Below are positions 27,608-29,275 of a stretch of DNA of 37,343 nucleotides, piece by piece. Numbering within the stretch: position 1 is the first letter of the stretch; every line of letters begins with the position of its first letter. The notes under the pieces were generated by a model, which had not been told where the DNA came from, made no database searches, and worked only from the letters and a program-made list of their open reading frames with translations. The translations under genes were made by a program, and so were the position numbers. The stretch is taken from positions 1 to 37,343 of the forward strand of contig NZ_QLIT01000115.1 in the NCBI RefSeq assembly GCF_003574485.1. Reading direction: 5' to 3'. Origin of the DNA: Facilibium subflavum. Its GTDB lineage: Bacteria; Pseudomonadota; Gammaproteobacteria; Francisellales; Francisellaceae.

Positions 27608-29074
27608 TTAGCTTTGGCTTAACTTGGCAACGTGCTCATACTCTTTAGACATCAAAACCGTGGCTGGTTTTGCAAGTAAGCTTACCGTAACAATAGAAAC
27701 AACTGCAAAAACAAAACCAGGTAGCAATTCATATAACTCAAATACACCACCTAAAAATTTCAAATGTGGCCAGATTAATACGGTTAATGCACCGGTAATA
27801 ATACCTGCAAAAGCACCTGCAAGATTCATTCGCCGCCAAAATAATGATAAAAGCACAACCGGGCCAAAAGATGCACCCAATCCCGCCCAGGCATAACCCA
27901 CCAGATTTAAAATTGAGCTTTTTGGATTTGCCGCCAGCAAAAGTGCGACAATGGCAATTAAGAATACAACGATACGGCTTGAAAATAAAAGCTCTGTTGT
28001 CGAAGCTTTCGGACGGAAAAACTTATGATAGAAATCCTCAACAACTGCGCTTGAAGAGGCTAATAATTGCGCTGACGCTGTACTCATGGTTGCCGATAGC
28101 ACTGCTGCTAATAAGACCCCTGCAATCCACGGGTTAAAAAAAGTATTAGACAGCACAATAAAAATTGTCTCAGGGTTGCTTAAGCCTTTTGACGAAAAAT
28201 ATGCCAAACCAAAAAGTCCCGTAAATACAGCACCTAATAAGGCAATACACATCCAGGTCATGCAGATAAATTGTGCCTGAGGAATTGATCTGGCTGTTTT
28301 TGTTGCCATAAAACGCACCAAAATATGTGGCTGACCAAAATATCCAAGCCCCCAGGCAAAAAGCGATAAAACACCGATAATGCTGGTGCCTTTAAATGCA
28401 TCCAAATAGACAGGTGACTGCTGTGCCACATCTGTAAGCGCGGTATTAATGCTGCCAATATGATATAAAACAACTACAGGCACAAGAATCAATGCTAAAA
28501 ACATCAAACAGCCTTGAAAAAAATCAATCCATGATATTGCAAGAAACCCACCAATACAGGTATAAATTAAAATAATTGCTGCAGTCAAACCCAGCCCTGC
28601 TGCATAACTAATGCCAAAAGTTGAACTAAACAACAATCCACCGGCCACAAAGCCTGAAGCAGTATAAAAAGTAAAAAATATCAAAATCACGATTGCGGTT
28701 AATAAGCGAATAAATCCCGTTTTATCGTGGAAGCGATTTTCAAAGTATGCAGGAATTGTGATAGAGTCTTTAGCAACTTCAGTATAAATGCGTAAACGTT
28801 TTGCAACAAACTGCCAATTTAAATAAGCCCCTAAAGCAAGACCTAAAGGAAGCCAGATTTGATTTAATCCATGGAGCATAACAGCACCTGGTAGCGCTAA
28901 CAAAAGCCACGAGCTCATATCCGAAGCACCGGCTCCTAAAGCGGCAATCGGCCCACTTAGCGAACGACCTCCCAACATATAATCATTTAAGTTCTTAGTA
29001 TAAAAATAAGAACAGATACCTAAACTAAAAATAATCGCAATATAGATGACAAAAACAACTGTTAATATAGACAT
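27608..29074 (-). CDS. putP: Sodium/proline symporter
   Basis: SSS-family sodium-coupled proline uptake protein, 488 residues (E. coli 502), with about 13 helices. It closely follows PutP: LNDYMLGGRSLSGPIAAL, GAGASDMSSWLLLALPGAV (Asp52 and Ser54 match Asp55 and Ser57 of E. coli, which bind sodium), LGAYLNWQFVAKRL, YTCIGGFLAISW, and FGQPHILVRFMA. AGGGGA before the ATG. It lies 47 bp after a 25-codon membrane peptide gene under the same promoter. Proline specificity is by family resemblance. Confidence 0.94.
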   Translation of the reverse strand: MSILTVVFVIYIAIIFSLGICSYFYTKNLNDYMLGGRSLSGPIAALGAGASDMSSWLLLALPGAVMLHGLNQIWLPLGLALGAYLNWQFVAKRLRIYTEVAKDSITIPAYFENRFHDKTGFIRLLTAIVILIFFTFYTASGFVAGGLLFSSTFGISYAAGLGLTAAIILIYTCIGGFLAISWIDFFQGCLMFLALILVPVVVLYHIGSINTALTDVAQQSPVYLDAFKGTSIIGVLSLFAWGLGYFGQPHILVRFMATKTARSIPQAQFICMTWMCIALLGAVFTGLFGLAYFSSKGLSNPETIFIVLSNTFFNPWIAGVLLAAVLSATMSTASAQLLASSSAVVEDFYHKFFRPKASTTELLFSSRIVVFLIAIVALLLAANPKSSILNLVGYAWAGLGASFGPVVLLSLFWRRMNLAGAFAGIITGALTVLIWPHLKFLGGVFELYELLPGFVFAVVSIVTVSLLAKPATVLMSKEYEHVAKLSQS

Positions 29075-29121: not shown

Positions 29122-29199
29122 TCAAAGGTTTCTAAGATAATTGATTAAAGATAACCCAATAATTGCGGCCAGTGGTGCAAAAAACACTACCCATGACAT
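29122..29199 (-). CDS. 25-residue membrane peptide upstream of putP, possible symporter accessory
   Basis: An ATG at 29199, six bases after a strong GGGGAG site, opens 25 codons ending TGA at 29122. The peptide begins MSWVVFFAP, has one hydrophobic span (about residues 3-19, VVFFAPLAAIIGLSLI) and ends NYLRNL with one positive charge, i.e. a single-span membrane peptide. It lies 47 bp ahead of putP and about 40 bp after a promoter with a perfect -10. Small single-span companions are known for other sodium symporters (MetS with MetP, YhdT with PanF, YjcH with ActP), so an accessory role is plausible. Too short for usual gene callers. The role is inference. Confidence 0.65.
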   Translation of the reverse strand: MSWVVFFAPLAAIIGLSLINYLRNL

Positions 29200-29246
29200 A
29201 ACTTTCTCCCCTTATTGTTTACATTAAGGTGCTTTAGAATACGCTT

Positions 29247-29275
29247 ATTATACAAAGCGACAATAAACTTTTTAA
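29247..29275 (-). promoter_or_regulatory. Promoter of the small peptide-putP operon
   Basis: Minus-strand TTAAAA (29275-29270), 17 bp, and perfect TATAAT (29252-29247). Transcription would begin near 29240, about 30 bases before the GGGGAG ribosome binding site of the 25-codon gene. Confidence 0.65.

Follow-up and report, generated by a model that had tools for sequence, protein, structure and literature searches.

A gene of 25 codons located directly upstream of putP in the window (the whole stretch of 37,343 nucleotides of Facilibium subflavum DNA analysed here) probably encodes a small accessory subunit, hereafter the companion, which would sit on helices 2 and 7 of the sodium/proline symporter PutP and stabilise or activate one class of these transporters. 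The first-pass annotation had proposed an accessory subunit or regulator of PutP, and this proposal was supported, as far as sequence comparison can tell, by the linkage of the small gene to putP across phyla, by its occurrence as one copy per genome, and by the PutP residues that track its presence.

Layout and coding nature of the small gene

The arrangement that had been described, comprising TTAAAA-17-TATAAT, GGGGAG, 25 codons with one hydrophobic span, a stop, 47 bp and then putP, was recovered in every element at the coordinates listed in Table 1. The peptide, MSWVVFFAPLAAIIGLSLINYLRNL, is the translation of the minus-strand frame, and the transporter matched TIGR02121 with 644.7 bits (cut-off 515.5, E 9e-194). 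Strong SD-like sites were also found before most companion homologues, and the interval that separates the companion gene from putP contained no terminator-like site. A promoter common to both genes had been claimed as well; the consensus match exists, but its sharing by the two genes is only plausible, since the scan of the region gave three sites against 7.2 expected in shuffled sequence, which is not above chance. In addition, the match was not conserved in the aligned relatives.

Table 1. Coordinates of the features discussed, given as positions of the window.
Feature	Position	Strand	Basis
Promoter-like TTAAAA-17-TATAAT, 10/12	29247..29275 (TTAAAA 29275-29270; TATAAT 29252-29247)	minus	consensus scan
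GGGGAG, Shine-Dalgarno-like, 6 nt before companion ATG	29206..29211	minus	sequence
Companion gene, 25 codons, single-span membrane protein	29122..29199, stop included (ATG at 29199; TGA ends at 29122)	minus	ORF, homologues and HMM
putP, sodium/proline symporter, 488 aa	27608..29074 (ATG at 29074)	minus	TIGR02121, Pfam SSF
PutP residues 80-92, helix 2, including Q88; proposed companion-facing face	28799..28837	minus	columns tracking the companion
PutP residues 262-293, helix 7, including F269, L280, F284, L287; proposed companion-facing face	28196..28291	minus	columns tracking the companion

The frame was aligned across eight loci, namely the window, one further genome (G004) and six genomes of a single genus (g4), in which the DNA could be aligned in the small frame and in putP, but not, over all eight, before or between them. 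The codon-conservation check proposed by the first-pass annotation gave, over a 21-codon block, a pN/pS of 0.19-0.29 between the window and its close relatives and of 0.15-0.22 within g4. Drift of the frame together with the surrounding DNA had been named as the outcome that would speak against a gene; the reverse was observed and the test was passed, because the amino acid pattern (SWxVxFxPLxxIIGLSLxNYxxN) was kept among the eight loci while the start position, the length of the gap and the flanks, which were unalignable, changed. Judged by these substitutions, the 25-codon frame is a real, conserved gene under purifying selection, and with the HMM matches upstream of other putP genes added, the reading frame is far beyond chance. 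That it should be a chance ORF or a toxin-like hydrophobic peptide which happens to lie upstream of putP is hardly conceivable: the peptide is indeed short and hydrophobic, and the promoter match is at chance level, but these pN/pS values, the conservation across phyla and the strict linkage to putP contradict such a reading.

In one genome (G349, locus L036), an intact companion was followed by a putP that tblastn recovered in pieces in different frames; these frameshifts may represent an assembly error or a pseudogene.

The companion family and its predicted topology

Family HMMs were built from twelve and then from thirty-one members. The search upstream of putP that had been suggested for the relatives detected a companion at 53 of 154 putP loci, to which a locus with a weak score (L202) and another recognised by eye (L183) can be added. 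Companions directly upstream of putP were found in at least four phyla (Pseudomonadota, Bacillota, Balneolota and Thermodesulfobacteriota), and the named bearers included Ectothiorhodospira, Caenispirillum salinarum, Halobacillus, Salipaludibacillus, Aquibacillus, Cytobacillus firmus, Mesobacillus campisalis, Balneolaceae and Desulfobacteraceae. Most homologues had 30-41 residues, the 25 residues of the window's companion lying below this range, and the family consensus read MEHaLTtATWFWLLVPMPLLiiLSiItyfteRre, with one proline that was invariant in 54 of 54 companions. Lysine and arginine were distributed very unevenly, with none before the span and 114 after it, so that the positive-inside rule predicts an N-terminus outside and a C-terminus inside the cell, while the C-terminal tails differed in both length and sequence (companions of 25-61 residues). 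The companion of the window matched the HMM A5, carried the invariant proline, had lysine or arginine only after the span and lay directly upstream of putP.

No model covering the putP companion family was present in Pfam or NCBIfam. A six-frame search with a narrower profile (A3) in 398 genomes from across the phylum gave a clear copy in the window's genome alone, and the family is therefore sparse in this phylum-wide sample; a tblastn search of plasmids with a 34-residue companion returned no real match. The bearers are, by name, mostly halophilic or alkaliphilic (Halobacillus, Salipaludibacillus, Ectothiorhodospira, Balneolaceae), which hints at a salt- or pH-related role of the companion, such as osmotic or sodium tuning, although this association is confounded with phylogeny.

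Linkage to putP, gain and loss

The linkage was assessed by a six-frame search with profile A5 in 200 Bacilli genomes, which was not limited to putP neighbourhoods. All 15 matches at E<1e-5 immediately preceded a gene for a PutP homologue and had its orientation. Three weaker matches were also obtained, two of them inside long frames and the third (L243) without PutP nearby; the latter was a lone companion-like frame of 28 residues, MTHSITAISLFWLFVPMVLLMILLILSL, possibly an orphan or a remnant. When 17 named genomes were searched with the profile, 11 had exactly one copy and six had none at E<=0.01.

In most bearers, the distance from the companion to putP was between -11 and about 20 nt, frequently -4 (an ATGA overlap). 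Such tight overlap is a common arrangement for stoichiometric partners and thus suggests stoichiometric synthesis; in the window's own bacterial family the gap was 47-179 nt, with no tight overlap. When presence or absence of the companion was mapped onto a tree of 97 PutPs, 7 changes were required, against about 31 in shuffles; as read from this tree, its presence follows the PutP phylogeny with several losses. No copy was found up- or downstream of putP in the 17 genomes of genus g6 (L011-L024 and L026-L028), a sister genus in the window's family whose PutP is ~60% identical, and the companion was likewise absent from the PutPs of E. coli, Pseudomonas and Bacillus sonorensis. Since many PutPs do without it, the companion is not needed for the basic transport cycle. 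A 69-residue hypothetical protein encoded between putA and putP on the E. coli plasmid NZ_CP041417.1 (L263, 427-636) was considered and rejected as a companion homologue.

Relation to described symporter partners

The first-pass annotation had compared the peptide with tiny single-span companions of other sodium symporters (MetS, YhdT and YjcH). This held for MetS, the small single-span subunit of the methionine/alanine importer MetPS, whose gene accompanies that of a sodium symporter; this symporter, however, belongs to the NSS rather than the SSS family. YjcH and YhdT are small membrane proteins whose genes precede those of the SSS symporters ActP and PanF, respectively, but both are larger, with about 80-100 residues and two spans. 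The Pfam and NCBIfam scans gave no match to MetS / MaAIMP_sms for eight companions (E<=10) or for that of the window (E<=1), and none of these companions matched the YjcH or YhdT profiles. Matches to CcmD (heme exporter protein D) reached 12.7-14.1 bits against cut-offs of 25.6-25.95, in a gene context of putP instead of ccm, and were discarded, as were matches to Microcin and DUF4017, which fell below the cut-off.

With YhdT and YjcH set aside for their size and second span, the described family that comes closest is NCBIfam NF045580 (symport_access, symporter small accessory protein). Its members, too, have about 35 residues and a single span, and their genes immediately precede that of an SSS symporter and share its orientation, an arrangement seen at 15 of 15 loci checked (L246-L260). 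However, the symporters next to them share only about 25% identity with PutP, and their consensus (MLGIxDxQIxxAYLLxxLSxxLCVVYGxxxWNS) differs from that of the companion (LTxATWFWLxVPMPxxIxLS). The hhalign comparison of the two profiles gave a probability of 2%, that is, no detectable relation; the NF045580 profile, at its 35-bit cut-off, had no match in the window's genome or in 15 genomes, 11 of them companion-bearing, and hmmscan of nine companions gave no NF045580 match. Like the putP companion, NF045580 is a likely symporter subunit; no published work on its function was encountered.

A further parallel is offered by MAP17 (PDZK1IP1), a protein with a single transmembrane helix whose partner transporter shares the fold and superfamily of PutP (SSS/SLC5). 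MAP17 is eukaryotic and larger than the putP companion, the helix TM13 of SGLT2 is missing from PutP-like proteins, and no sequence relation between the two small proteins is claimed; an independent origin is likely. MAP17 is the single-span auxiliary subunit of human SGLT2, which needs it for function or stability; it contacts TM13 of SGLT2 and remains associated with the bundle module, which does not move (PMC10803289). Accessory subunits do not appear in a review of prokaryotic SSS proteins (PMC7918813), and, in agreement with the first-pass annotation, which knew of no described partner of PutP, no description of one was found in open-licence papers.

PutP residues that track the companion

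PutP columns were ranked by the difference in their behaviour with and without the companion. The top-ranked columns clustered on two segments, residues 80-92 and 265-287, corresponding to helices 2 and 7 in LeuT numbering, an assignment taken from the order of helices in an AlphaFold2 model; the choice of these segments was made once the pooled ranking had been seen. Where the companion is missing, the columns that change are Q88, Y/F280 and F284. In the four companion-less lineages (g6, the Rossellomorea group, L069 and a ten-row proteobacterial clade), these three positions were changed nearly always, and L287 also shifted. A stricter ranking over the four contrasts placed Q88 and F284 first, with four of the five top columns on the helix 2/7 segments. 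An independent-pairs sign test with three well-supported contrasts gave nearly always the same direction, these contrasts being too few for per-column significance. The PutPs of g6 have G or S at position 88 and W at 269; with the companion lost and these residues altered, compensating changes of PutP may be readable in this genus.

The association was examined further in 45 PutPs whose sequences were new to the analysis, the absence of a companion being already known for 34 of them. The signature of an aromatic residue at 280 together with F284 occurred in two (L272 and L273), both of which had, at about 1400-1500 of the locus, a companion overlapping the start of the transporter gene (MLPLSTTLWLVVPPIVILAAAIVYFLRKERPN and MLPLSTALCLVIPPIVILTIAILYFFRKEGPN, respectively), the companion of L273 being recognised by eye, with an HMM E above 0.05. 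The other 43 showed neither the signature nor a detectable companion. The transporters of L272 and L273, both from Thermodesulfobacteriota, are PutP-like, 34-36% identical to the PutP of the window and below the TIGR02121 cut-off, and the companion family may accordingly extend to further SSS subfamilies.

Such a correlation with residues of the PutP protein would be unexpected if the short frame were a leader whose translation controls putP by attenuation, ribosome arrest or translational coupling, its peptide having no task in the membrane. A short frame with a good SD does stand in the 5′ region of putP, the two frames overlap in many genomes, which could couple their translation, and conserved Trp and Pro are also seen in some arrest peptides. 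Nonetheless, the conservation follows the transmembrane helix and the charge asymmetry rather than the codons near the stop, and Rfam gave no match. Because of this asymmetry, of C-terminal tails that vary in length and sequence, of overlaps with putP that leave an attenuator no room, and of the correlated PutP residues, the leader reading fits poorly and is very improbable.

The correlated face of PutP suggests a stable interface, and the close overlap of the two genes points to stoichiometric synthesis, both of which speak against a regulator or quality-control adaptor that would bind PutP transiently and affect its insertion, its turnover by membrane proteases or its activity under osmotic or sodium stress. 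This reading is unlikely, even though many small membrane proteins act as regulators or adaptors, the preponderance of halophile and alkaliphile names among the bearers fits a conditional role, and the companion gene was lost repeatedly while putP was kept.

Proposed function and its implications

For the accessory subunit, the following course is proposed. The companion would be made together with PutP, presumably by co-transcription, and its helix, with a kink or an opening at the invariant proline, would pack against the bundle helices 2 and 7 of PutP, around Q88 and residues 269, 280, 284 and 287. This packing would stabilise or activate the Na+/proline symporter, much as MAP17 does for SGLT2; the binding, the stoichiometry and the effect on transport are what we infer. 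Whether PutPs fall into two classes is an evenly balanced matter: a one-subunit class would comprise those of E. coli, Pseudomonas and g6, and a two-subunit class, spread over several phyla, would carry a stoichiometric subunit of 25-40 residues docked on bundle helices 2 and 7.

If true, bacteria would have in the two-subunit class their own equivalent of SGLT2-MAP17, with a separate origin within the superfamily that SGLT2 and PutP share. PutP serves as a model among sodium symporters. Transport assays on the PutPs concerned would have to be run differently if they have a conserved companion that gene callers easily miss. Such a companion would also give a minimal bacterial system for the tuning of an SSS transporter by a single-span subunit, as in MAP17 and the drug target SGLT2, for which the column analysis supplies concrete PutP residues to mutate.

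Structure models

In L004, companion and PutP form a natural read-through in one frame; this was modelled with AlphaFold2, the stops being replaced by Gly, and the companion helix reached a pLDDT of about 90. This value was rejected as a sign of contact, for the companion modelled alone scored as high (pLDDT 92). In the Foldseek/VIA alignments, which span the PutP part of the model only, the modelled transporter agreed well with SSS structures, namely NIS (Z 35.3, rmsd 3.0, 455 aligned), the sialic acid symporter (Z 34.4, rmsd 3.3, 456 aligned) and SGLT2 (Z 31.3, rmsd 2.9, 476 aligned).
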